A stretch of DNA of 64,000 bases from Prevotella sp. (lineage in GTDB: Bacteria > Bacteroidota > Bacteroidia > Bacteroidales > Bacteroidaceae): assembly GCA_017619375.1 (NCBI GenBank), contig JAFZSL010000039.1, positions 45,974 to 109,973 on the forward strand, given 5' to 3'. The position numbers and the translations under genes were made by a program. Position 1 is the first letter of the stretch. Each line of letters starts with the position of its first letter. Positions 33,808 through 50,746 of the stretch are shown in pieces. The notes beneath the pieces were generated by a model that ran no database searches, was not told the origin of the DNA, and worked only from the letters and a program-made list of their open reading frames with translations.

Positions 33808-34404
33808 TTAGTCCAACTGCAGGACCATGTTATGCTCTTTAGCCATCCTTCTCAGATTGAGGATGGCATATCTCATGCGTCCCAATGACGTGTTGATGCT
33901 CACCCCGGTGGCCTCGGCGATTTCCTTGAAAGACATCTCCTGATAGAATCTCATGAACACCACCTCACGCTGCGTTGGCGGGAGCATGTTCATCATCTTG
34001 CGTACGTCGCGTAGCACTTGTTCGTTGACAAATTGATTCTCCACGTTCAAATCAAGGACCTCGTTGCCGCCAAGGTTGGAGAGGTCGTTCTCCTCATTGG
34101 CTTCGACGATTTTCTCCGACTTCTGCTCACGATACCAGTCCATGATGACATTATGGGCAATCCTCACCAACCAAGCCCCGAATTTTCCGGAATTGGTGTA
34201 TTTATGCTGCTGCAACTTGGTGATGACCTTGACGAAAGTCTCCTGAAAAATGTCATTGGCCACTTCATGGTCGCGCACGACAAACATGATATAAGTAAAG
34301 AGTTTGGTTTGCGTCCTTGACAACAACAAATCAAACGCCTTATTGTCACCGTCGATGTAGGCCAAGGCCAATTCCTCGTCGGTCAACTTTTTCAGATATT
34401 CCAT
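33808..34404 (-). CDS. ECF-type RNA polymerase sigma factor
   Basis: A 198-residue sigma-70 family protein with region 2 (LFTYIMFVVRDHEVANDIFQ, ETFVKV) and region 4 (LPPTQREVVFMRFYQEMSFK, EIAEATGVSINTSLGRMRYA). No anti-sigma gene is adjacent. A strong promoter precedes it with a leader of about 80 bases. The regulon cannot be told from the sequence; this type is a near-universal single-copy sigma in Bacteroidales. Confidence 0.9.
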   Translation of the reverse strand: MEYLKKLTDEELALAYIDGDNKAFDLLLSRTQTKLFTYIMFVVRDHEVANDIFQETFVKVITKLQQHKYTNSGKFGAWLVRIAHNVIMDWYREQKSEKIVEANEENDLSNLGGNEVLDLNVENQFVNEQVLRDVRKMMNMLPPTQREVVFMRFYQEMSFKEIAEATGVSINTSLGRMRYAILNLRRMAKEHNMVLQLD

Positions 34405-35106: not shown

Positions 35107-36273
35107 ATGGCCGTAAAGATACTCAGTGTTGACGATGAGCTTGACCTTGAACTTTTGTTGACACAATATTTCAGAAGAAAAATCAGGAAAGGGGAATACG
35201 AGTTCCATTTTGCACACAATGGTTTGGAAGCCCTTACGATGCTACTCAAGGAAAAGGACTTCGACATCATCCTCAGCGACATCAACATGCCCGAAATGGA
35301 CGGTCTGTCACTGTTGGCGAAAGTCAATGAGATGCAGAACCCCGCCTTGAAATGCATCATGGTGTCCGCCTATGGCGACATGGGAAACATCCGCCAGGCG
35401 ATGAACAACGGCGCTTTCGACTTTGCGACGAAACCCATCGACCTTGACGACCTCAGCCTGACCATAGAGAAAGCCATCGAGCAAATCAACTACATCAAGG
35501 AGATGCAGCAGGAGCATCACCAGTTGGAATCCATCAAGGGCGACCTTGCCGTGGCGAGGGAAATCCAACAAGCCATACTCCCGCGCATTTTCCCACCCTT
35601 CCCCGAGAACGCCCACCAGATAGACATCGCCGCCTCGATGAATGCGGCCAAGGACGTGGGTGGCGATTTCTATGATTTCTTCCGCATCGACAACGACCAC
35701 ATCGGCTTCGTCATCGCCGATGTCAGCGGGAAGGGGGTTCCCGCCGCCATCTTCATGGCCGTCAGCCGCACGCTCATCCGCGCCACCGGCCTCAGGAGCA
35801 TTAAACCCTCGGAGTGCATCACCTACTCCAACAACTTGTTGTCAGAGGAATCAGCCAACTGCATGTTCGTCACCATCTTCTACGGCATCTACAACATCAA
35901 GACCGGCGAAGTGACCTATACCAATGCCGGCCACAACCCACCCATTTTGGTCAAAGCCGACGGCAGCATCAAACGACTGCCAACCTGCGAAGACATCGCC
36001 GCCGGCATCGTCAAGGATTTCTGCTTCTCAGAAGAGACTTTCCATTTGGACCACGGTGACACGCTTCTGCTCTATACCGATGGTGTGACAGAGGCGGTCG
36101 ACATAGACAACAAGGATTATGGCGAGGAACGATTGGAAACCTTGTTGGGAAACATCTCGTCACAAATAGACTGCCAGCAGATGATAGCCCGTGTGAAAGC
36201 CGACGTGAAAGCCTTTGCCGGAGAAGCAGAACAGAGTGACGACATCACGTTGCTCGCCATAAAACGACTCTAA
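35107..36273 (+). CDS. Response regulator fused to SpoIIE/RsbU-type serine phosphatase
   Basis: A 388-residue two-domain protein. Residues 1-125 are a CheY-like receiver: VDDE acidic pocket, phospho-acceptor Asp58 in ILSDINMPEMDG, the conserved Ser/Thr in MVSAYGD and Lys in ATKPID. A coiled-coil linker (about 125-170) leads to a PP2C-like SpoIIE domain beginning AREIQQAILPRIFPP, with metal-site motifs DVGGDFYDFF, VIADVSGKGVPAAIFMA, YTDGVTEA and a final SDDITLLAI. Such proteins dephosphorylate a target, often an anti-sigma antagonist, when the receiver is phosphorylated. No STAS or anti-sigma gene is nearby. ATG 35107 is preferred to a longer frame. It is first in the five-gene run. Confidence 0.9.
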   Translation: MAVKILSVDDELDLELLLTQYFRRKIRKGEYEFHFAHNGLEALTMLLKEKDFDIILSDINMPEMDGLSLLAKVNEMQNPALKCIMVSAYGDMGNIRQAMNNGAFDFATKPIDLDDLSLTIEKAIEQINYIKEMQQEHHQLESIKGDLAVAREIQQAILPRIFPPFPENAHQIDIAASMNAAKDVGGDFYDFFRIDNDHIGFVIADVSGKGVPAAIFMAVSRTLIRATGLRSIKPSECITYSNNLLSEESANCMFVTIFYGIYNIKTGEVTYTNAGHNPPILVKADGSIKRLPTCEDIAAGIVKDFCFSEETFHLDHGDTLLLYTDGVTEAVDIDNKDYGEERLETLLGNISSQIDCQQMIARVKADVKAFAGEAEQSDDITLLAIKRL

Positions 36274-36285
36274 CCACCAAACAGC

Positions 36286-37941
36286 GTGGACAGGAAGCAG
36301 ACCATAATGGCATGCGCAGGCTTGTTGCTGGCAGGAATGGCCGCCACAGGCTTCATCGGCTGGATGTCGGAGCACAAGAAGGTGGAAGACCTTCAAGCTC
36401 AGGTGGAAGAGGCGAAGAAGAAGGAGATGCGGTCGGCTGTCGACAGGAGCATCAGTGCCCAAATGGAGCAGATAGCCAACGAACAAAGGGAAATCTCTGA
36501 TGAGAAACGCGAGGAAGCCCTTTGGCAGACGAGGGTCGCCAACGAGATGCGCGAGCGTTCCGAACATGAGCGCCAGAACGCCATAGAGGCTGAACGGAAT
36601 GCCGTCGCTTCGGAGCAAAAGGCTTTGGAAGCCACTTCTGTTGCAGAAAAGCAACGAGGCGTGGCAGAACAACAGAAAGCCTTGGCCGAACAACAGAGAG
36701 CACTGGCGGAACAGCAGCGACAAATGGCAGATCACCAGCGCATTCAGGCAGAGTTGTCCAAGCGCAAGGCCGACACGCTGAGTTACATCGCCCTGGGACG
36801 CTCCCTTGGGTCCATCTCCACCATCCAAACCCAGGCAGGCAACAACGAAATCGCCAACTTGTTGGGTTATGCTTCCTATCTCTACACCTCGCGCTATGGA
36901 GGAGACATCTATTATCCCTCCATTTTCAAGTCGCTCATGTATTTGAGCCAGAGCAAGGTCTCATGGTCGGAGCACCTCGGCGCCGTGATGAACCTGGAAT
37001 ACATGCCAGGCAAGGACAACACGCTTGTCTCCATCAGCAACTACGGCGAGGTCATCCTGAGCGAGAGACAAGGCGACCGGTTGGCGACGAAAGTGCTCTT
37101 CAAAAACAACAAATACGATTTTCGCGACGTCATCGTCGACCGTAACTCAGGAAGCATCCTTGCCGTCAGTCGCACAGGGCACCTGGTCGTCATCGAGAAA
37201 GACCTCAAGACCGTCAAGACCATCACCCTCGACAAGGTGGAGCACCCCATGCGACTACACGACCTCAACGAGAAGAGCATGATCGTGATAGGCGAAAAGG
37301 CGCTTGCCTTGATAGACTTGAAGCATATGGTTGTCGGCGGAGTGAAACAACTCCCCTTCCGTGTCTCCCTTGGTTCCCGCAAGGAAGGCCTTCCCCTGCT
37401 CTTCGACGACCAGGGAATGATGCATTTGGTGAAAGGTCTCGACAGCTTTGACACAAAAAAAATGCCCTTCGAAGGAAAGGTGACCGCTTATTGTGAGTCG
37501 AAGAACACCGGCGTAGAAGCCTTTGGCATGAGCGACGGTACCATCTGGCTGATGAACAAGACTGGCAAAAGGCAGAAACTCATAGGCCATCGGTCGCGAA
37601 TCTCAAAAATGAAATTGAACGGCCGTCGTCTCTACTCCGCCAGCTACGACGGGAGCGTGAACCTTTGGATAACCGACAGGGAGAAGGTGGAGCCGATGAC
37701 GCTGATTGAAAGCAACAGTTGGATCATGCATTTCAATTTCGACTCGACGAAGAACACCTTCTGGATGGGAGACATCAAAGGCAACCTGACCGCCGTCAAT
37801 ATCTCCGTGCCGCTCATGGTGGAAACCATCAGGAAAAAAATGAAACGTGACCTGACCGCCGAGGAATGGAACTACTACATCGGTCAGGACATACCTTTTG
37901 AATCGTTCATCGGCACCCAAGGAAAGGAGGGCAAACGATGA
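36286..37941 (+). CDS. Membrane-anchored coiled-coil protein with WD40-like beta-propeller
   Basis: A 551-residue protein starting at GTG 36286 (ATG 36307 is possible). It has one N-terminal transmembrane helix (about 8-26), a long coiled coil (about 30-165) with Gln/Ala/Glu heptads and the repeated unit LAEQQRA, a short helical region, and a C-terminal propeller (about 225-520) with WD-like phrases SRTGHLVVIEKD, IGHRSRISKMKLNGRRLYSA and SYDGSVNLWI. It ends with an EEWNYYIGQDIPFESF motif found at the end of other bacterial WD40 proteins. It starts 12 bases after the phosphatase gene and overlaps the sensor kinase by 4. It could be a scaffold or signal adaptor; the side of the membrane is uncertain. 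Confidence 0.8.
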   Translation: MDRKQTIMACAGLLLAGMAATGFIGWMSEHKKVEDLQAQVEEAKKKEMRSAVDRSISAQMEQIANEQREISDEKREEALWQTRVANEMRERSEHERQNAIEAERNAVASEQKALEATSVAEKQRGVAEQQKALAEQQRALAEQQRQMADHQRIQAELSKRKADTLSYIALGRSLGSISTIQTQAGNNEIANLLGYASYLYTSRYGGDIYYPSIFKSLMYLSQSKVSWSEHLGAVMNLEYMPGKDNTLVSISNYGEVILSERQGDRLATKVLFKNNKYDFRDVIVDRNSGSILAVSRTGHLVVIEKDLKTVKTITLDKVEHPMRLHDLNEKSMIVIGEKALALIDLKHMVVGGVKQLPFRVSLGSRKEGLPLLFDDQGMMHLVKGLDSFDTKKMPFEGKVTAYCESKNTGVEAFGMSDGTIWLMNKTGKRQKLIGHRSRISKMKLNGRRLYSASYDGSVNLWITDREKVEPMTLIESNSWIMHFNFDSTKNTFWMGDIKGNLTAVNISVPLMVETIRKKMKRDLTAEEWNYYIGQDIPFESFIGTQGKEGKR

Positions 37942-40775
37942 GAAGACTACTTGCCGTCTTAGCCGTTCTGTGCCTCACCACGATGACCCATGGACAGGGC
38001 ATCCCCTTCATCCGCAATTTCACGGCGGAAGAATACCATGCCAACAACACCAACTTCGACATCGAGACCGACGAGAACGGCAATGTATTCGTGGCCAATT
38101 TCGAAGGCTTGCTATATTATGACTTCGCAGAATGGCGCATCATCCATACACCTGGGACCACACGCACCACGGTCGTATACAGGGCAAAAGACAATTCCAT
38201 CTGGGTGGGTGGCTACAACTATTTTGGCAAGGTGGTGAGAAAAGCCAACGGCGACATCACACTGCACAAGATAGGAAAATCAGACTTGTTCCGTGGCGAG
38301 GTGAAGGAAATCTACGAACAAGACGGCGAACTCCTATTCGTCGCCGAGAACGGCTTCATTTACCAAGTGCGCGACGACAAGGTGAGTGTCAAGAAGGAAG
38401 TGGGCAAGGAATCGCTCAAGATGGGCATGCTCGACGTGGTGGACATTGCTGCGTTGGAGCGAGGCGAGAAAGAGGCGGTCAAGCAAGACACCGTCCAGGT
38501 GGAGCCTTTGGGCAATGGTCTGAAGGCAATCGTGATGAAAAACGCCGGCATCGTCATTGCCGACGACAAGGGCCACACCCTCTACACCCTCACTGAAGCC
38601 AACGGCCTATGTTCCAACAATGTGGCCTATACAGACTACGACGGGCGCGGACATCTCTGGGGTGCCACAAACAAGGGAATCTTTGTCGTCCAGATACCTG
38701 CAGCCATCTCACATTTCACCGCCCCGGAAGGACTTCCGGGCACCATACTCTCCATCGAGTCCATCAACGGCATCATTTATGCAGGAACCGACGACGGTCT
38801 TTACCGTCAGGAGGGATACCGGTTTGTCAGCGTGCCTGACGTGCCACACGCGTGCTGGCAACTGAAAAAAAGTGGCAGCGGACTGCTTGCCGCCACAGCC
38901 GACGGCATCATCCGAATATATCCCGACGGGAAAGTCCGCCATTTGACAACCGCCAACTCCATGACATTGCTGGAAGAAGACACCCACATCTACAGCGGGG
39001 AGACCGACGGCGTCTACCTGGTGCAGGCCGACGGGCGCGACAAGAAGAAAATCTTCCATTTGGACAATGTCAGGAAAATAGAGAAAGACAAGGAAGGCAC
39101 CATCTGGGCGCAAAACCTTTATGGGGTGGTGTGGTGCAAGAAGACGGAAGACAGCATGTTCCATCTTTACAAGAGTGGCGGAAAGGCCGACAACATGCAT
39201 ACCATCGTGATGACAGGCGGGAAGGCCACCATTGTCAGTGCCGAGGCGACAACACCTTTCCCGTATCCGCTGATGTCATACGCCGACGGCAACGGTTTCA
39301 CCTGGCTGACCAACAACGAGGGGAAAAAACTCTATCGCTGGAAGGACGGCAAGAGGGTGGACGACATGGACCGCCTACTGTTCCTCGTCAATGAGACACC
39401 CATCAATAGTTTGTTCACCCGACAGAACGAGATATGGCTGGGCGATGACAAAGGACTGATGGTCATCAACACCCAGGTGAAAGACCCCGCCATGGACGTA
39501 ACCCCGAAACTTTGCATCCGCTCCGTCAAGTTGGGCTCCGACAGCATCCTGTGGGGAGGATTCGGCAAAATGCCCGAGACGTTGCCGAAACTTGACTACA
39601 ACGAGAACAACATCCACATCACCTTCTCCCTGGACTATCCCTCGGTTGTCGGGCAGACGCAATACCGCTACAGGCTTAACGACGAGAATTGGAGCAATTG
39701 GAATTCCAATACGTCGGTGAGCCTGACGAACCTCACCTACGGCAAATACACCTTCAGCGTGCAGGGACGCGACATCTTCAACCGTGTCACGGAAGTATCC
39801 AGCATCACCTTCCAGATAAGACCGCCATTCTACCTCAAGTGGTACATGATCCTGCTTTATCTGCTGCTGCTCATCGCCTTGGCATGCATCTTCTCCCAAC
39901 TGCGCCTGCACAGACTAAGGAAAGAGAAGGACAGGCTGGAGAAAATCGTGCAGGAACGCACGGCGGAGGTCGTGAGATTGGAGAAGATGGCGACGGCCGG
40001 CAAACTGACGCAGGGACTCATAGACCGTATCCTCAACCCGCTGAACTACATCATCAACTTCGCCAAACTGTCGGAAGGCCTTGTAGGTGACGTCCGGGCC
40101 AATGTGGAGGACGAGAAAGAGCATATGGATGAAGAGAACTATGATGACACGATGGACGTGCTGGACATGCTGAAAGGCAATCTGCAGAAAGTGGGCCAAC
40201 ACGGACAGAACACCTCGCGAACCCTGAAGGCGATGGAGGAGTTGCTGAAAGACCGGTCGAGCGGCATCGTGCCCATGGACCTCATGACCGTCATCCAGCA
40301 AAACAAGAGGATGCTGCATGAGTATTTCAAGCAGGAGATAGGACAACATGGCATCAACATCGTCTTCGACTACACAGAAGACCAGATACCTGTCAACGGC
40401 AATGCCGAACTGTTGAGCAAGACCTTTATGAGCATCCTGAGCAACGCCGTCAACGCCGTTGCCAAGAAAGCCCAAAAGTTGCAGGCTTCCGAGGGCACAA
40501 AGGGAGCATATTCTCCTGAAGTGGCGTTGAATGTCACACAACGGGAAAACATCATCATGGTCACCATCCGCGACAACGGCATAGGCATCGAGGATGCCAT
40601 CATCGGGAAAATCTTCGACCCATTCTTCACCACCAAGTCCACAAGCGAGGCAGCCGGTGTCGGACTCTACCTGAGCCGCGAGATTGTGCAAAACCATGGC
40701 GGAGACATCCAAGTGAAGTCTGTCAAAGACGAATATAGTGAGTTCATCATCACGTTACCAGCAAAAAAACCATAG
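37938..40775 (+). CDS. Two-component sensor with periplasmic propeller and degenerate H-box
   Basis: A 945-residue hybrid-sensor-like protein without receiver. Signal peptide (about 1-20), periplasmic Reg_prop beta-propeller (about 25-520), Y_Y_Y domain (about 545-625: YRYRLNDENWSNW, YTFSVQGRD), one transmembrane helix (about 633-655), a coiled coil, a dimerisation region and HATPase_c (about 790-945; N box SILSNAVNAV, G1 RDNGIGI, FDPFFTTKS, GVGLYLSREI). The H-box reads LTQGLIDRILNPLN: Asp696 stands where the phospho-accepting His should be, and Arg replaces the next Glu. The downstream kinase at 40780 has the normal HEIQNPLN at the aligned place. This one may therefore sense and regulate rather than autophosphorylate. 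Confidence 0.85.
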   Translation: MRRLLAVLAVLCLTTMTHGQGIPFIRNFTAEEYHANNTNFDIETDENGNVFVANFEGLLYYDFAEWRIIHTPGTTRTTVVYRAKDNSIWVGGYNYFGKVVRKANGDITLHKIGKSDLFRGEVKEIYEQDGELLFVAENGFIYQVRDDKVSVKKEVGKESLKMGMLDVVDIAALERGEKEAVKQDTVQVEPLGNGLKAIVMKNAGIVIADDKGHTLYTLTEANGLCSNNVAYTDYDGRGHLWGATNKGIFVVQIPAAISHFTAPEGLPGTILSIESINGIIYAGTDDGLYRQEGYRFVSVPDVPHACWQLKKSGSGLLAATADGIIRIYPDGKVRHLTTANSMTLLEEDTHIYSGETDGVYLVQADGRDKKKIFHLDNVRKIEKDKEGTIWAQNLYGVVWCKKTEDSMFHLYKSGGKADNMHTIVMTGGKATIVSAEATTPFPYPLMSYADGNGFTWLTNNEGKKLYRWKDGKRVDDMDRLLFLVNETPINSLFTRQNEIWLGDDKGLMVINTQVKDPAMDVTPKLCIRSVKLGSDSILWGGFGKMPETLPKLDYNENNIHITFSLDYPSVVGQTQYRYRLNDENWSNWNSNTSVSLTNLTYGKYTFSVQGRDIFNRVTEVSSITFQIRPPFYLKWYMILLYLLLLIALACIFSQLRLHRLRKEKDRLEKIVQERTAEVVRLEKMATAGKLTQGLIDRILNPLNYIINFAKLSEGLVGDVRANVEDEKEHMDEENYDDTMDVLDMLKGNLQKVGQHGQNTSRTLKAMEELLKDRSSGIVPMDLMTVIQQNKRMLHEYFKQEIGQHGINIVFDYTEDQIPVNGNAELLSKTFMSILSNAVNAVAKKAQKLQASEGTKGAYSPEVALNVTQRENIIMVTIRDNGIGIEDAIIGKIFDPFFTTKSTSEAAGVGLYLSREIVQNHGGDIQVKSVKDEYSEFIITLPAKKP

Positions 40776-40779
40776 CATC

Positions 40780-41598
40780 ATGGAACAGATAGAACAGCTC
40801 AAGCAACAACTCCGGCAGCAGGAGAAATTGGCCTCGCTTGGCATGCTAAGTGCAGGCATCGCCCACGAGATACAAAATCCGCTGAATTTCGTCATCAACT
40901 TCAGCAAGATGTCCGACAAGTTGTTGGGCGACCTTGCCGATGTTGTGGAGGACAACGCGGACAAGTTCCAGGAAGAAGACCGGGAGGAAACCGAGGACAT
41001 CATTGCCAACCTGAGGGCGAACATGGCCAAGATCATTGAGCATGGCGAGCGCGCCATCAGCATCATACAGAGCATCCTGATGGTGTCAAGAGGCAAGGAA
41101 AACGAACCGCTTCCCACAGATGTCTGCAAGTTGGTCAAAGAGTATGTGTGGCTGTCGTACCACGCCATGCGTGCCAACGACAAAGGTTTCAACATCAACA
41201 TCCATGAGCAATATGAAGAAGGGTTGCCGATGATGATGGTCATCCCACAAGATTTGAGCCGTGCCGTGCTCAATGTGATGAACAATGCCTGCTACACCAT
41301 ATGGAGAAAGAAACTGTCGGCAGACGAAGACTACCATCCCCAGGTGTCTGTCACCGTCAAGATGGAGGATGCCAACCTCGTGATACGCATCGCTGACAAC
41401 GGCGAAGGCATGACAGAGGAGACAAGACGACATGCCTACGAAAACTTCTTCACGACCAAGCCGATAGGGCAAGGGACGGGACTTGGATTGGGCATCGTCC
41501 GCGACATCATCGAAAACAAGCATGGAGGGACAGTGTCCTTTGACACAGCCGAAGGCGAAGGCACCACCTTCACACTCATCATACCTGTCAGGAAATGA
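40780..41598 (+). CDS. Soluble histidine kinase without sensor domain
   Basis: A 272-residue cytoplasmic kinase consisting only of a short coiled coil, HisKA and HATPase_c. H29 in SAGIAHEIQNPLNFVINF is the phospho-acceptor; the N box is LNVMNNACYT, G1 IADNGEGM, F box NFFTTKP and G2 GTGLGLGI. The dimerisation region aligns well with the sensor at 37938 (both have a NPLN..INF.K.S..L.GD stretch and an HG about 100 residues on), so the two are homologous and could form a heterodimer. ATG 40780 is chosen because it comes 4 bases after the upstream stop and begins the coiled coil. Confidence 0.88.
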   Translation: MEQIEQLKQQLRQQEKLASLGMLSAGIAHEIQNPLNFVINFSKMSDKLLGDLADVVEDNADKFQEEDREETEDIIANLRANMAKIIEHGERAISIIQSILMVSRGKENEPLPTDVCKLVKEYVWLSYHAMRANDKGFNINIHEQYEEGLPMMMVIPQDLSRAVLNVMNNACYTIWRKKLSADEDYHPQVSVTVKMEDANLVIRIADNGEGMTEETRRHAYENFFTTKPIGQGTGLGLGIVRDIIENKHGGTVSFDTAEGEGTTFTLIIPVRK

Positions 41599-44036
41599 AG
41601 AAGAAGCTATATTTGCTCCTGTTGGCAGGCATCTGCTTGTCGTCCCTTTGCGCCCATGCGCAGGAGAACACCTTGCGGCAACTTTACAACCAAGCTGAGA
41701 GTGAATACGAAATAGGTCACGTGGAGCAGGCCATCCAATTGTTACAGAACAACCTTGATGGCTTCGAGGGAAACCTCAAGCAGAGTGCCTATCGACTCTT
41801 GGCTCTATGCTATCTGAGTGAGGACCGCGACGAGGAAGCCAGATATTATGCAGAACGGTTGGTCAGGCTGAACAACTATTACAACTCGGCAGACGACCCG
41901 GCACGATTCCAGGACCTCGTCAGCCAACTCAAGGAAGGCGTCACCACCACCATCACCACGGCATCCAGCCAGAGTGAATCCATCAACGAGGCCCCGGTTC
42001 CCATCACCATCATCACTGCTGAGATGATAGAAGAACTGGGATATAACAAGAACTTGCAACAAATACTCGCTGCATACGTCCCAGGCATGGCAGAGTTGAC
42101 CTCCATGGATGAAGGCGTGAACATGTCCATGCACGGCGCCTACGCCAACGGGCAGGAACTCATCCTGATCATGGAGAACGGCCACCGCCTCAACACCCGT
42201 TTTGACAACAGCGGCCCCACAAGCTATTCTGTCAGTACGGAGAAGATAGACCATATCGAGGTGTTGCGCGGCCCTGCCTCCTCACTCTATGGCAACGTGG
42301 CCTTGTCGGCGGTGGTCAACATCATCACCAAAAGCGGCAGGTCGGCCGATGGAGTGAAAGCGAAATACGGCCATGCCACCTTCAACACTAACAAGGTTGA
42401 CTTCACGGCGGGTACGCAGTTCATGGATGCAGACATCTTCGCTTGGGCATCCATATACAACTCCGATGGACAGATACGCCATTTTGCTGATGGCAAAGGC
42501 TATATGTTGAATCATTATCTTCCAGTGGAAGAATTCGGTTACTTTAAAAGAATGTATATTGGCCCGGAATACGCTTATATAGATGGATACAAGGATACCC
42601 CAGCCTATGATGTCGGCCTGACGTTCAGACTCAAGGGCTTCGACTTGCTCTTCAGCAAAAAGAATGTCAAGAAGGTCATGCAGCAAACCGTATCCTATGG
42701 TGGATATGACTACGACAAATATTGTTCCATCCATGGCATCAAACCCGGCAGGGGAATGGAGTCCACCCACGCCGAAATAGGCTATACACGGCAGTTGCGC
42801 AACATCTTGCTGAACACATCGTTTTACAGCGACTGGTACAACATCTCCGACTTCGAGGTGGAATATGATTCGCTTGTGACTGTTTCCCCGGTTTATGATG
42901 ATGAGATTGACGATTATGTCAGGGACGAAGATGGCAACATCGTGATAAAAACGGAAGAACTGCAAGGATGTTTCCACTACATCCATTATAGGGAACATAC
43001 GGTAGGGGGAATCGTAAAAGCCTCTGCCGACTATATGCTCGGCAAGATGAAGGGAAGCATGCTGGTGGGAAGTCAGTATGAGTATTTTTCACTACTTTCC
43101 AGTCTTTCTTTATGGGGGGAGGGCAGTTTTGATATAAAAAGCGGTATGGCCGCAGACGACGCTCTCGTCAATTATGGCAAGGAAAAAAGCTTGTCCTTCT
43201 TCATGCAGGGCAAACACTATTTCATGCCTCAACTCATCCTGAATGCCGGTTTCCGATACGACCTGAAATACAGGAAGGAAGAAGATGTTGTCAACACCTT
43301 CTCTCCCCGTCTGGCCTTGATGTATGTGCCTAATGAGCGTTTCAGCCTCAAACTGTCTTATTCAGAGGCCTTTGCAGACCTTTCCTTTAACAATCGCTAT
43401 GTTACAAAGACAGACTATTACACCATGGACCCACAGCATTTGTCGGCCATACAACTCACGGCGATGGGAACCATACCATCGATGCACCTCAATTACGAGG
43501 CAAATGTCTTTTATAACAAATATTCCAATCTGTTGTGCTGGCAGATAAGAAACATGTTTAATGGCAAAAACAGCGGACAGCTCACCAATGTCGGCTTCGA
43601 AGCAACTGCCAGTTATGCCTACAAACGCCTTTCCGCCAACTTGTCTTTATATTACTGTCACGATATCAGTTTTGAGAATTATTATTATAACTCATCCGAA
43701 AAGATGGTCTGTGGCGTGCCTCATTTCACGCTTAATCTCCATGGGGCGTGGAAAGTCGTTCAGGGAAAAAAACACGAAGTCAAGGTCTATGGGCATTCGA
43801 CATATATCGGCAGGAAACTGAACTACGAAATGAGTGAAGACAAAGACTTCTTCGTAGATGGGAATTTGCTCTTCGACTTAGGTGTCAAGTATCAATACAA
43901 ACAACGTCTGCAACTCTCCCTCGACTGCGAAAACATCCTCGATACCGATTCTTACGTCTGTGGACCCAACCTCCAATTGGCACCCAAGTTTCAGCGAGGT
44001 AGGACATTGATGGCATCGCTTTCCTACCGATTCTGA
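41595..44036 (+). CDS. TonB-dependent receptor with N-terminal TPR-like domain
   Basis: An 813-residue outer-membrane receptor. Signal peptide (about 1-23, ending CAHAQ), then a helical TPR-like domain (about 25-110: LRQLYNQAESEYEIGHVEQA, IQLLQNN, SAYRLLALCYLSEDRDEEAR), a plug (about 130-240: PVPITIITAEMIEELG, VLRGPASSLYGNVALSAVVN), and a barrel that ends LMASLSYRF with terminal Phe. No TonB box is obvious. Most Bacteroidetes receptors carry a carboxypeptidase-regulatory-like domain at this place, so the TPR-like domain is unusual and may be the contact for the signalling proteins. It overlaps the kinase gene by 4 bases. Substrate unknown. Confidence 0.88.
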   Translation: MKKKLYLLLLAGICLSSLCAHAQENTLRQLYNQAESEYEIGHVEQAIQLLQNNLDGFEGNLKQSAYRLLALCYLSEDRDEEARYYAERLVRLNNYYNSADDPARFQDLVSQLKEGVTTTITTASSQSESINEAPVPITIITAEMIEELGYNKNLQQILAAYVPGMAELTSMDEGVNMSMHGAYANGQELILIMENGHRLNTRFDNSGPTSYSVSTEKIDHIEVLRGPASSLYGNVALSAVVNIITKSGRSADGVKAKYGHATFNTNKVDFTAGTQFMDADIFAWASIYNSDGQIRHFADGKGYMLNHYLPVEEFGYFKRMYIGPEYAYIDGYKDTPAYDVGLTFRLKGFDLLFSKKNVKKVMQQTVSYGGYDYDKYCSIHGIKPGRGMESTHAEIGYTRQLRNILLNTSFYSDWYNISDFEVEYDSLVTVSPVYDDEIDDYVRDEDGNIVIKTEELQGCFHYIHYREHTVGGIVKASADYMLGKMKGSMLVGSQYEYFSLLSSLSLWGEGSFDIKSGMAADDALVNYGKEKSLSFFMQGKHYFMPQLILNAGFRYDLKYRKEEDVVNTFSPRLALMYVPNERFSLKLSYSEAFADLSFNNRYVTKTDYYTMDPQHLSAIQLTAMGTIPSMHLNYEANVFYNKYSNLLCWQIRNMFNGKNSGQLTNVGFEATASYAYKRLSANLSLYYCHDISFENYYYNSSEKMVCGVPHFTLNLHGAWKVVQGKKHEVKVYGHSTYIGRKLNYEMSEDKDFFVDGNLLFDLGVKYQYKQRLQLSLDCENILDTDSYVCGPNLQLAPKFQRGRTLMASLSYRF

Positions 44037-44145: not shown

Positions 44146-45375
44146 TTATCGCACCCCACCCATCCGTTTCTTTAGTTTTTTGGCAGCCTTTCCCGTCAAT
44201 TTCATATAATACGCACTGCCTTTGTCCCGGGGCAGGAACTCGCTTCCCGGCTTGGGCGTAGGCACTTTTTTCGCGATTTTGAAGATGGCGGTACCCTCGT
44301 CGATTTCGTCAAACATGGCGATGTAGATCATCTGTGCATTGGCAGAGCAGAAATCCAATTGCTTTTTGAAAAACGACCCTTTGTTGCGTGGTATGCCCGT
44401 CACATTCTTGTTGTTGTGATAGTTCATATTGCGCCATGAAAATCCGGGGAAGCAAACAGGCGCATAGTCGACATGGTTGGCTTTGGCCCATTTCATGTCT
44501 TCGAGTATCAGTTGTTGGAATCTTGGGTAGCTTTCTTCGTTGTATCTCCCCACGAACCATGGCAGCAAGATGTCGCACATCTTGATTTGCTGGTGCAGGC
44601 GCGGGTCTTTCAACGCATCCTTCTCCATCTGCCTCCAATAGGTGGGAACGCCGAGCATCACACTGAATCCCAATTCCTTGAGTCCCTTGATGATGGTCTC
44701 CGACTCCTTGAATCCATATTTGCGTCCCTCATCGAATCCCACTCCAAAGACAGCCACGAGAGGTTTTCCATTATGATAAAGGTATTGCGGACAACGTGCA
44801 TGGTTGAAGAGACTGTACTTGACAGCCAGCAACCGGATGTCGTTGAGCACCACATTTTCGTCTCCCGGCACCATGTCGCTCAGGTCATACATCACACAGA
44901 CAGCCCTTTCATATTTCCTGCCGGCATTCATTGCATTGTCAAGCACGGCATCGTGATGAACTTTTGCCGAGGGAATTTTCTGCAGGACGACGAACCTTTG
45001 AACGAAGGCACCATCGATGCCATATTGTTTCATCCATTTGAAATGCAGGTCCACCGTGGAGGCATCACGAGAAGAGAACACCCTGGCCTTCTGCCCGTTG
45101 TCAAAAGTGAACTGAGTCTCATAGGTCTTCTCATACTCACTCACATCAGGCCACATGTCCACGTTGGCGAACCCAGGACGGAAGGTGCCATCCTTCCCCT
45201 GGTAACGATACCACCCCCGGTCGCCCCCGTCGCCAGGGGCGCTGAACCATCCTTGGTAACCAGCCATCACCAATCCCTTGTAAGAGTCGTAACTCTTCAT
45301 CGTCTGTGCGCAAACGGATTGCACTCCTAATATGAAAGCCACCAGGCAAATAGTCCAAAACAAGTTCTTTCTCAT
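44146..45375 (-). CDS. Secreted glycoside hydrolase, family 71/99-like
   Basis: A 409-residue protein with a signal peptide (about 1-23, ending CAQ). The body resembles GH71/GH99-like TIM-barrel enzymes: GLVMAGYQGWFSAPGDGG at the start, YGIDGAFVQRF, VMYDLSDM, GKPLVAVFGVGFDEGRK, ILLPWFVGRYNEESYP, FPGFSWRNM and IAMFDEIDEGTAIFK. In this clan the two acidic residues near the C-terminal end (DEIDE) are typical. Such enzymes act on alpha-glucan or alpha-mannose linkages, but the substrate here is not decided by sequence. A basic C-terminus (KKLKKRMGGVR) is notable. Confidence 0.8.
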   Translation of the reverse strand: MRKNLFWTICLVAFILGVQSVCAQTMKSYDSYKGLVMAGYQGWFSAPGDGGDRGWYRYQGKDGTFRPGFANVDMWPDVSEYEKTYETQFTFDNGQKARVFSSRDASTVDLHFKWMKQYGIDGAFVQRFVVLQKIPSAKVHHDAVLDNAMNAGRKYERAVCVMYDLSDMVPGDENVVLNDIRLLAVKYSLFNHARCPQYLYHNGKPLVAVFGVGFDEGRKYGFKESETIIKGLKELGFSVMLGVPTYWRQMEKDALKDPRLHQQIKMCDILLPWFVGRYNEESYPRFQQLILEDMKWAKANHVDYAPVCFPGFSWRNMNYHNNKNVTGIPRNKGSFFKKQLDFCSANAQMIYIAMFDEIDEGTAIFKIAKKVPTPKPGSEFLPRDKGSAYYMKLTGKAAKKLKKRMGGVR

Positions 45376-48703: not shown

Positions 48704-50746
48704 TTATTCCTCTTCCTCTTCTTCGGCTCTGTTTTCGGCATCGATAGCCTTGATTTTCTCTTTGACCAGTGCCAACTCATCCTTGAGTTTCTGCACCTTG
48801 CGGTTCATCTCGTCGATGAGGCTGTTGCCCTTCTTGCTGGAGACACTGAGGAAACCGAGGTTGTTCTCATAAGTCTGAATCTCCTGCTTGAGCGCTTCGT
48901 ATCTACGCATGAGGCGTGTGCGCTCGTTGTCAAGTGCTCCCGCACCTTTCTCTGCGACGCTGCGCAGGCTGCTGCGGTAGTTGTCAAGGCGACGACGAGT
49001 AACAGAGATATTGAGTTCCTTGTAAATCTTGTCAAGCACTTCGTGGAATTCCTTGAACAATTTGTCCTTCTCACGATAGGGAACGTGGCCGATCTGGTTG
49101 TAGTCGTCCACCAAGCCCTGCACCTGCGACTGGGTCTCCGTGTCGGGTTCCTTTTCAGCGATAGCCTTCAGCCTTGCGATGATGTCACGTTTCTTGGCCA
49201 AGTTCTCACGCTCCTCGCCTCTTGTGCCGGCTGTTGCAGCATTGCGTGCCTCAAAGAACTTGTTGCAAGCACCAAGGAACTCGCTCCAGAGTTGGTCGCC
49301 CAGTTTCTTTGGCACCGTGCCAATGGTTCTCCATTCCTTCTGCAAGGCGGTGAGTTTCTCTGCCGTTGCCTTCCATTCGGTGCTGTCCTGCAAAGCCTTG
49401 GCTTGCTCGACAAGCGCCCGTTTCTTCTCTGCATTCTCGGCGAAGTGACTCTTCATCTCCCTGAAGAACTGGGTCTTGCGTCCGAAGAAGTCATCGCAAG
49501 CGGCACGGAAGCGCTCGAAAATCTTGACGTTCATCTTCTGCGGTGCGAAACCGATGGTCTTCCACTCTGCCTGCACTTCCTTGATTTCACGGGTATGGCG
49601 CTCCCAGTCGGCAGCTCCCTTGTTCTCCTCCTTGGCGATGGCTTCCACCTTCTCGCACAATGCAGTCTTGCGCGCAAGGTTCTCCTCCTCCTTGGACCTG
49701 AGTTCCTCGAAATGCTGTTGGTGTCTCTTGTTCACCACCGTTGATGCGGCTTTGAAACGAGCCCATACCTGCTCCCTGAGGTCCTTGGCCACTGGCCCGG
49801 CCTCACGATATTGCTGATGAAGTTCCTGAAGTTGGTGGAAGGCGCTGATGACATCTGGTTCTTCAGCCAATTTCTCAGCAGCTTCGCACAACTTGGTCTT
49901 GATTTCCAAATTCTTGCGGAAATCATATTCCCTTGCCTCAATGTTCAGGCGGAGTTGGTCGTAGAATTGCTCCACATAGTGCTGGTATGTCTTCCACAAC
50001 TCATTGGCACGTTCCTGAGGGACAGCCTTGATCTCACGCCATTCCTGCTGGAGGCGCTTGAACTCTTGATACGACTTATTGGCATTCTCTGGCGAGGTGA
50101 CCATGGTCTTGATCTTCTCGATGATGGCCAACTTTTTCTTGAGATTCTCAGCCTTCTCGTTCTCCATATCTTGGAAGACACGCTGACGCCTCTCCTTGAT
50201 GAGCGTCATCTCAGCCTTGAATTTCTCTTCCTCCTCATCGGGAACAATCTGGAACTGTTCCGGATCACCGCCACCGTCAACGAATGCTTTCTTTGCGGCG
50301 TCCTTCTCAATGACAAGCAACTTGTAGAAAATGGTCTTCAAGAGGTCCACCTCGTCCTTGCTGGGGTTTTCCTCACCGTGGGCAAGTTCTATCACACGTT
50401 CCAAAACTTCGCCCTTGGTCTTGAATACTTTCTTCTCAGCCTCTTCGGTGGGAGCAGCCTCTTCGGCGGGAGCAGCTTCCTCAGCGGGAGCAGCCTCTTC
50501 GGCGGGAGCAGCTTCCTCAACAGGAGCAGCCTCCTCAACAGGAGCAGCCTCCTCGACGGGTGCAGCTTCCTCAGCGGGAGCAGCCTCCACGACGGGTGCA
50601 GCCTCCTCGGCGGGAGCAGCCTCCACGTTTTCAACAATTTCTCCTTCCGTCACTTGCTGTTCCTGAACGTCGGCATTGGAAGATTCTGCCACATTCTCTT
50701 CTACTGGTTTGCCCTCTACTTGGGGCTTGTCTTGAGAGTCCATCAT
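48704..50746 (-). CDS. DUF349 repeat protein with acidic Ala/Pro/Glu N-terminus
   Basis: A 680-residue, mostly helical protein. The N-terminal about 110 residues are a low-complexity tract of repeated EEAAPA/EEAAPV units (coded in 18-base periods, roughly 50430-50640). The rest consists of several DUF349 repeats, each about 70 residues with a central W (LQQEWREIKAVP, WKTIGFAPQKM, LQKEWRTIGTVPKKL, YNQIGHVPYREKDKLFKEF). It ends in coiled coil and an acidic tail EEEEE. DUF349 proteins are cytoplasmic and have no well-fixed role. A -7 box TAAGTTTG (50798-50791, minus) precedes it. Confidence 0.85.
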   Translation of the reverse strand: MMDSQDKPQVEGKPVEENVAESSNADVQEQQVTEGEIVENVEAAPAEEAAPVVEAAPAEEAAPVEEAAPVEEAAPVEEAAPAEEAAPAEEAAPAEEAAPTEEAEKKVFKTKGEVLERVIELAHGEENPSKDEVDLLKTIFYKLLVIEKDAAKKAFVDGGGDPEQFQIVPDEEEEKFKAEMTLIKERRQRVFQDMENEKAENLKKKLAIIEKIKTMVTSPENANKSYQEFKRLQQEWREIKAVPQERANELWKTYQHYVEQFYDQLRLNIEAREYDFRKNLEIKTKLCEAAEKLAEEPDVISAFHQLQELHQQYREAGPVAKDLREQVWARFKAASTVVNKRHQQHFEELRSKEEENLARKTALCEKVEAIAKEENKGAADWERHTREIKEVQAEWKTIGFAPQKMNVKIFERFRAACDDFFGRKTQFFREMKSHFAENAEKKRALVEQAKALQDSTEWKATAEKLTALQKEWRTIGTVPKKLGDQLWSEFLGACNKFFEARNAATAGTRGEERENLAKKRDIIARLKAIAEKEPDTETQSQVQGLVDDYNQIGHVPYREKDKLFKEFHEVLDKIYKELNISVTRRRLDNYRSSLRSVAEKGAGALDNERTRLMRRYEALKQEIQTYENNLGFLSVSSKKGNSLIDEMNRKVQKLKDELALVKEKIKAIDAENRAEEEEEE

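Follow-up and report, generated by a model that had tools for sequence, protein, structure and literature searches.

The window analyzed here is a 64,000-nt stretch of a Prevotella sp. genome (GenBank assembly GCA_017619375.1, contig JAFZSL010000039.1, positions 45,974 to 109,973 of the forward strand), and our subject is a unit of five plus-strand genes within it (genes 1 to 5, Table 1). The open reading frames (ORFs) are spaced by 12, -4, 4, and -4 bases in gene order; ORF and Pfam analysis confirmed the five genes, coordinates, and spacings reported in a first-pass annotation of this DNA. Pfam detected Response_reg and SpoIIE in gene 1, weak WD40-type propeller matches in gene 2, Reg_prop/Y_Y_Y plus HATPase_c in gene 3, HisKA and HATPase_c in gene 4, and Plug plus TonB-dependent barrel in gene 5. 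By hydropathy, genes 2 and 3 contain one membrane segment each, genes 1 and 4 contain none, and gene 5 has a signal-peptide-like start. The domain assignments of the first-pass annotation agree with Pfam, except that gene 3 had been taken for a sensor and is more than that, carrying a kinase-like DHp/ATPase half from which the phosphoacceptor His is missing; the TonB-dependent receptor was also borne out, and an N-terminal TPR-like domain can now be added to it. Gene 1 is a receiver-PP2C protein (RsbU/RsbY-type) whose receiver and phosphatase motif residues are invariant in 11 homologues including that of the window.

Table 1. Positions in the window of the five genes and of marked sites within them
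Feature	Coordinates	Strand	Description	Basis
Gene 1	35107..36273	+	Receiver domain (residues 5-120) and SpoIIE/PP2C phosphatase (196-387)	Pfam, conserved motifs
Gene 2	36286..37941	+	N-terminal membrane anchor (~7-25), long helix, WD40-like seven-bladed propeller	AlphaFold model, fold search, hydropathy
Gene 3	37938..40775	+	Periplasmic propeller with Y_Y_Y, transmembrane segment (637-655), pseudokinase half (DHp/ATPase, no phosphoacceptor His)	Pfam, alignments, hydropathy
Asp696 codon of gene 3	40023..40025	+	Phosphoacceptor His position	Alignments with gene 4 and outgroup kinases
Gene 4	40780..41598	+	Soluble histidine kinase	HisKA and HATPase_c, no transmembrane segment
His29 codon of gene 4	40864..40866	+	Phosphoacceptor His	His in 67/67 rows
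Gene 5	41595..44036	+	TonB-dependent receptor, siderophore-receptor-like plug and barrel	Pfam, solved relatives, model
TPR-like helical domain of gene 5	41670..41942	+	Residues 26-116, before the plug	Sub-cut-off TPR matches, model helices

The five genes are one real conserved unit, in an order beyond chance. From a scan with a gene-4 profile, the best 80 of 583 named loci were taken, mostly from uncultured Prevotellaceae and other Bacteroidales, and gene order was counted in 66 of these relatives (L049 to L114). All five genes are co-directional and in order in 50 of the 66, three of them with a gene resembling nonribosomal peptide synthetases (NRPS-like) between genes 4 and 5. The remaining 16 comprise seven partial loci (five beginning at a contig end), seven with a short gene 3', gene 4, and gene 1 only, and two others, among them L088, which was so scored since an overlapping ORF hid the gene-4 ORF present there. 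A search with gene 2 gave matches in 12 of 151 family genomes, including the window's own and one very weak match; ten loci fetched from it all contain genes 1-4, and eight have all five in order, the exceptions being L023 (no local gene 5) and L032 (rearranged). Of 301 family genomes, 19 have gene 4 (E<=1e-60) and the identical 19 have gene 5 (E<=1e-100, with a profile built from unit loci), while none of the 282 genomes without the unit gave a gene-5 match at that threshold among three first-look candidates scored per genome. Both the conserved order and the rarity of the receptor gene apart from the other four, on which the first-pass annotation had made its proposal depend, were thus upheld. 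In 16 of the 19 unit-bearing genomes, window included, all five genes follow this order, which in one genome is interrupted by an NRPS-like gene; the order is not intact in G070, G073, and G459. The unit is patchily distributed, since within the window's genus only 1 of 21 further genomes has it. Flanking genes vary among distant loci, and closely related loci have some in common.

The most unusual features of the unit are a conserved pseudokinase-kinase pair and a TPR-bearing receptor with a propeller partner. Judged from its alignments, gene 3 is a pseudokinase that has lost the phosphoacceptor His and not an orthodox sensor kinase. Asp replaces this His and Arg the next acidic residue in 11/11 first homologues (window included), and gene 4 keeps both the His and the following acidic residue in the first homologue set. 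In a larger alignment, from which gene-3 ORFs without a match past residue 900 and matches of <=120 bits were excluded, 66 of 67 gene-3 rows read Asp and one has a gap (66/66 readable rows), and His is present in 67/67 gene-4 rows and 27/27 outgroup rows. The ATP site of gene 3 is retained, with the N-box Asn, the G1-box DNG/G (66-67 of 67), and the G2-box glycines. In a tree of 57 kinase halves (midpoint rooting only) genes 3 and 4 each form one fully supported group, and the short gene 3' of Tannerellaceae and one Rikenellaceae row group with gene 3. The outgroup loci L115, L117, L118, and L119 carry a single His-bearing kinase of 1267-1301 residues before the receiver-SpoIIE gene. We read this as pointing to an old division of sensing and phosphate-accepting roles between genes 3 and 4, which may form a split kinase. 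A gene 3-gene 4 heterodimer is what we infer, with DivL and ChrS-HrrS as partial precedents by analogy. At L113 (7706-9979) a tandem pair of pseudokinase genes precedes the kinase and receiver-SpoIIE genes.

The plug and barrel of gene 5 have the colicin I receptor (Cir) and enterobactin receptors (FepA-type) as best-scoring solved relatives. The model of gene 5 (predicted local distance difference test, pLDDT, 85.1) places a helical domain of ~90 residues and five helices ahead of the plug, and this TPR-like domain is conserved; it is followed by a conserved TITTAS stretch, which we take to resemble a TonB box. FecA-type receptors carry an STN signaling domain ahead of the plug. There was no STN match in gene 5, either in the whole protein by Pfam or in residues 21-122 at E up to 10. 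The AlphaFold model of gene 2 (pLDDT 85.7) consists of a helix (3-183, low confidence at 53-111) and strands (224-505), it matched WD40 proteins in a fold search, and the C-terminal part is probably periplasmic. A PHROGs search with gene 2 gave no match, and Pfam found no nSTAND1 NTPase in it. In other families of the order its homologues are ~1040 residues long and combine an nSTAND1 NTPase (8/8 scanned, of 12 fetched), a coil, and WD40, with a single membrane segment following a basic stretch in 12/12; the 12 loci are a selection from best matches in 89 of 295 order genomes. By this resemblance gene 2 is related to transmembrane nSTAND1-WD40 proteins. An outer-membrane barrel gene adjoins the long homologue in all 12 fetched loci (six TonB-dependent receptors and four small barrels above the Pfam cut-off, two small barrels below), and the barrel N-terminus is like that of gene 5 in 10 of the 12. 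It is mainly because this pairing recurs that a contact between the TPR domain of gene 5 and the gene 2 propeller is proposed. A6 used 50 of 55 references and A7 52 of 53.

Further gene-5-like N-termini were seen in this survey. At L165-L169 and L171 an nSTAND1-type gene-2 homologue lies beside a small outer-membrane barrel with a mostly gene-5-like N-terminus, and several of these loci also have a very large ORF, plus a ~680-residue ORF beside a ~1050-residue membrane-type ORF; in L167 the ~680-residue ORF weakly matches SpoIIE. At L115, L119, L160-L164, and L170 there are TonB-dependent receptors whose N-terminus is gene-5-like, with a large MFS/HEAT-like ORF and other enzyme genes alongside (GNAT/FeeM-like at L115, formyl-transferase-like at L119 and L164, HMGL-like at L161).

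A clue to the ligand comes from neighboring genes. In 17 of 50 complete loci gene 5 is adjoined by an AMP-binding/NRPS-like gene, or such a gene separates it from gene 4. When three of the 17 were scanned (Pfam), all had adenylation and carrier domains and a sub-threshold thioesterase, and two had condensation domains; the other 14 were assigned by clustering with these three. A single condensation-domain gene is present in the window's genome, on a contig other than that of the unit. Because NRPS-like genes adjoin the receptor in these 17 loci, a nonribosomal peptide or siderophore is suggested as the ligand, which is a lead and not a finding.

Next, we considered the output of the unit. The first-pass annotation held that the pathway lacks STAS or anti-sigma partners. 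No STAS or RsbW gene is present at the window's own locus, yet such genes adjoin unit genes in 14 of 97 related loci, and the window's genome encodes three STAS genes and three RsbW-like domains on other contigs. In 11 of the 14 loci, from several families, the STAS/RsbW gene is <=70 bases from a unit gene on the same strand. In these 11 they precede gene 3'-gene 4-gene 1 (L103, L108, L111, and L114), follow gene 1 (L160 and L164) or gene 5 (L028, L029, L073, and L089), or are flanked by a SpoIIE-RsbW fusion and gene 1 (L093). In the other three they are upstream with another gene intervening (L159 and L174) or on the opposite strand (L162). The order STAS-RsbW-gene 3'-gene 4-gene 1 is that of four Parabacteroides/Tannerellaceae loci. 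The annotation had also suggested looking for STAS or anti-sigma genes whose presence matches that of the unit, and here again the outcome speaks against a lack of partners: a strong RsbW homologue (HATPase_c_2 match, E<=1e-18) is present in 19/19 unit-bearing versus 85/282 unit-less genomes (104/301 in total; Fisher p 5e-10; genus-stratified exact p 1.3e-4 for the seven genera having the unit). STAS matches were found in 256 of 301 genomes including all 19 with the unit, many inside long open frames of ~560-600 residues, and 35 of 38 STAS sequences compared have an SSGLR-like motif around what is presumably the usual phospho-Ser site. Examination of 19 stretches around RsbW from 17 unit-bearing genomes revealed no SpoIIE ORF in 15 and SpoIIE in the other four; ten of the 15 contain a STAS gene. 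The RsbW neighbors include CitMHS-type transporters and one Crp-type regulator. On the most economical interpretation, gene 1 is able to act as the phosphatase of a partner switch whose genes are located elsewhere, and the pathway is probably partner switching after all. A SpoIIE-RsbW-STAS set in the window's genome was considered as the cognate switch and is only suggestive: compared with the pair that immediately follows gene 5 at L089, identity is 63% for its RsbW (C53) and 56% for its STAS.

We propose, with a probability of about 0.6, that a partner-switching pathway has this operon as its input arm. A small ligand from outside the cell, perhaps a ferric siderophore or a nonribosomal peptide, would bind to gene 5, whose periplasmic TPR-like domain would change state. 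Gene 2, anchored in the inner membrane by its N-terminus, would touch the TPR domain with its propeller and long helix and relay this change of state to gene 3, at the periplasmic propeller. The gene 3 pseudokinase, whose altered residue is itself observed, would work via a heterodimer with gene 4, such that gene 4 is phosphorylated or released only if the gene 3 sensor permits. Histidine kinases phosphorylate receivers, and gene 4 would accordingly phosphorylate the gene 1 receiver. The SpoIIE/PP2C domain of that protein would then dephosphorylate a STAS protein, which captures an RsbW-like kinase and so frees the other target of that kinase; this chemistry is established for SpoIIE and RsbU (PMC11418112) and is supported for gene 1 by the linked STAS/RsbW genes. 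The functional intuition of the first-pass annotation, that receptor status or a periplasmic ligand changes a cytoplasmic phosphoprotein, would then be largely right.

Several observations weigh against this proposal. The TPR matches of gene 5 lie below the Pfam cut-offs (TPR_6 at 25.0 bits with a cut-off of 26.3; TPR_16 at E 7e-5), gene 5 is on a separate contig in G070, and no NRPS-like neighbor is present in 33 of the 50 complete loci or in the window. RsbW is not dedicated to the unit, given the 85 unit-less genomes that have it, and G459 barely passes the RsbW cut-off (9.5e-19 versus 1e-18). Five of the 15 SpoIIE-less RsbW stretches also have no STAS gene, and the neighbors of the switch genes include neither a sigma factor nor another RsbW target that is constant. 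There is no STAS/RsbW gene in 83 of the 97 loci, including three of the seven core loci (L107, L112, and L113), and all three RsbW-like domains of the window's genome share an ORF with another SpoIIE domain. These last two points are also what favors a substrate of gene 1 other than a STAS antagonist, as the first-pass annotation had suggested, with an incidental STAS/RsbW link; since in 11 loci from several families the genes are tightly linked on one strand, and in view of the 19/19 co-occurrence, we regard this as very unlikely.

The receptor might instead be an output: the gene 3 propeller would sense a periplasmic ligand itself, and the receptor would be part of the operon since that compound is also the one whose import the pathway regulates. 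The usual view of Y_Y_Y/propeller kinases in Bacteroidota is that they sense on their own, and the seven gene 3'-gene 4-gene 1 loci have neither gene 2 nor a receptor in the stretch examined. We consider this unlikely in view of the conserved TPR-like domain before the receptor plug, the occurrence of receptor and kinase in identical genomes, and the long gene-2 homologues, which adjoin barrels even without a labelled gene-3 or gene-4 match (L165-L168 and L171). A variant of the gene 3 step, compatible with the rest of the pathway, would make gene 3 an inhibitor that sequesters gene 4, or turns it into a gene 1 phosphatase, until the signal arrives. Pseudokinases can act non-catalytically, and DivL is described as a sensor and not as a participant in phosphotransduction (PMC5361649); the ATP-site residues kept in gene 3 fit a catalytic heterodimer role better than sequestration, and we hold the inhibitor variant to be possible, at somewhat less than even odds.

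The input-arm pathway resembles known systems in part. In Bacillus cereus the histidine kinase RsbK phosphorylates the receiver-phosphatase RsbY, which dephosphorylates RsbV, and RsbV then binds RsbW (PMC9912610); this is like the proposed pathway from the gene 4 to gene 1 step onward. In the consulted part of that account neither a split kinase nor an outer-membrane receptor nor a protein of the gene-2 type is described; its target is SigB, and the RsbY receiver is called C-terminal where that of gene 1 is N-terminal. In the HptB pathway of Pseudomonas aeruginosa a response regulator with phosphatase activity acts together with a STAS-only protein (PA3346-PA3347; PMC8256260); there several kinases enter via HptB, whereas the unit encodes a single kinase pair within the operon and includes an outer-membrane receptor. 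For the kinase pair, HrrS and ChrS of Corynebacterium form heterodimers (PMC9491836), and in DivL-CckA of Caulobacter (PMC5361649) and ChrS (PMC9491836), as in gene 3, a kinase homologue unfit for normal phosphotransfer steers another pathway or kinase; the unit differs in that its pair is encoded side by side, the His-to-Asp change is in all readable rows, and a phosphatase lies downstream.

FecA/PupB-type receptors, like gene 5, are TonB-dependent with a periplasmic N-terminal domain, and they signal to the inner membrane (PMC11429574 and PMC2729926). The unit differs in having a TPR-like domain, propeller proteins, kinases, and a phosphatase, with no STN match and no conserved linked extracytoplasmic function (ECF) sigma factor. 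A FecR-type regulator was not matched among the ten window proteins scanned (Pfam). The difference from the classical FecA-type route drawn by the first-pass annotation stands. An ECF sigma gene (33808-34404, minus strand) is divergent from the operon and was rejected as a partner because it is not conserved, with one weak match (L111) in 98 loci searched. Beyond it comes rpe in convergent orientation, which leaves no anti-sigma gene directly after the sigma gene. Elsewhere in the window, a GH99-like gene (below the Pfam cut-off; 44146-45375, minus strand) is convergent with the receptor gene, and an ORF with an EEAAP-type repeat run near its N-terminus lies at 48704-50746 (minus strand).

Among the titles and abstract openings of the literature searched, none describes the five-gene unit or a path by which an outer-membrane receptor would reach a partner switch. 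It is doubtful, though conceivable, that the unit represents a separate class of trans-envelope signaling in Bacteroidota, in which the periplasmic TPR domain of an outer-membrane barrel would be read by a propeller protein of the inner membrane, descended from a transmembrane nSTAND NTPase, the signal would be a self-made nonribosomal peptide, and a split, half-dead kinase would turn receptor occupancy into partner switching. If the proposed pathway is true, the unit would lead from a named outer-membrane receptor to a partner switch, it would be a case of a histidine kinase split in nature and marked by a conserved change of His to Asp, and it would single out nonribosomal peptides as signals to consider. 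It would also be a new means for gut and rumen bacteria to read a surface molecule, and the spread of the operon over rumen and gut genera would be accounted for.

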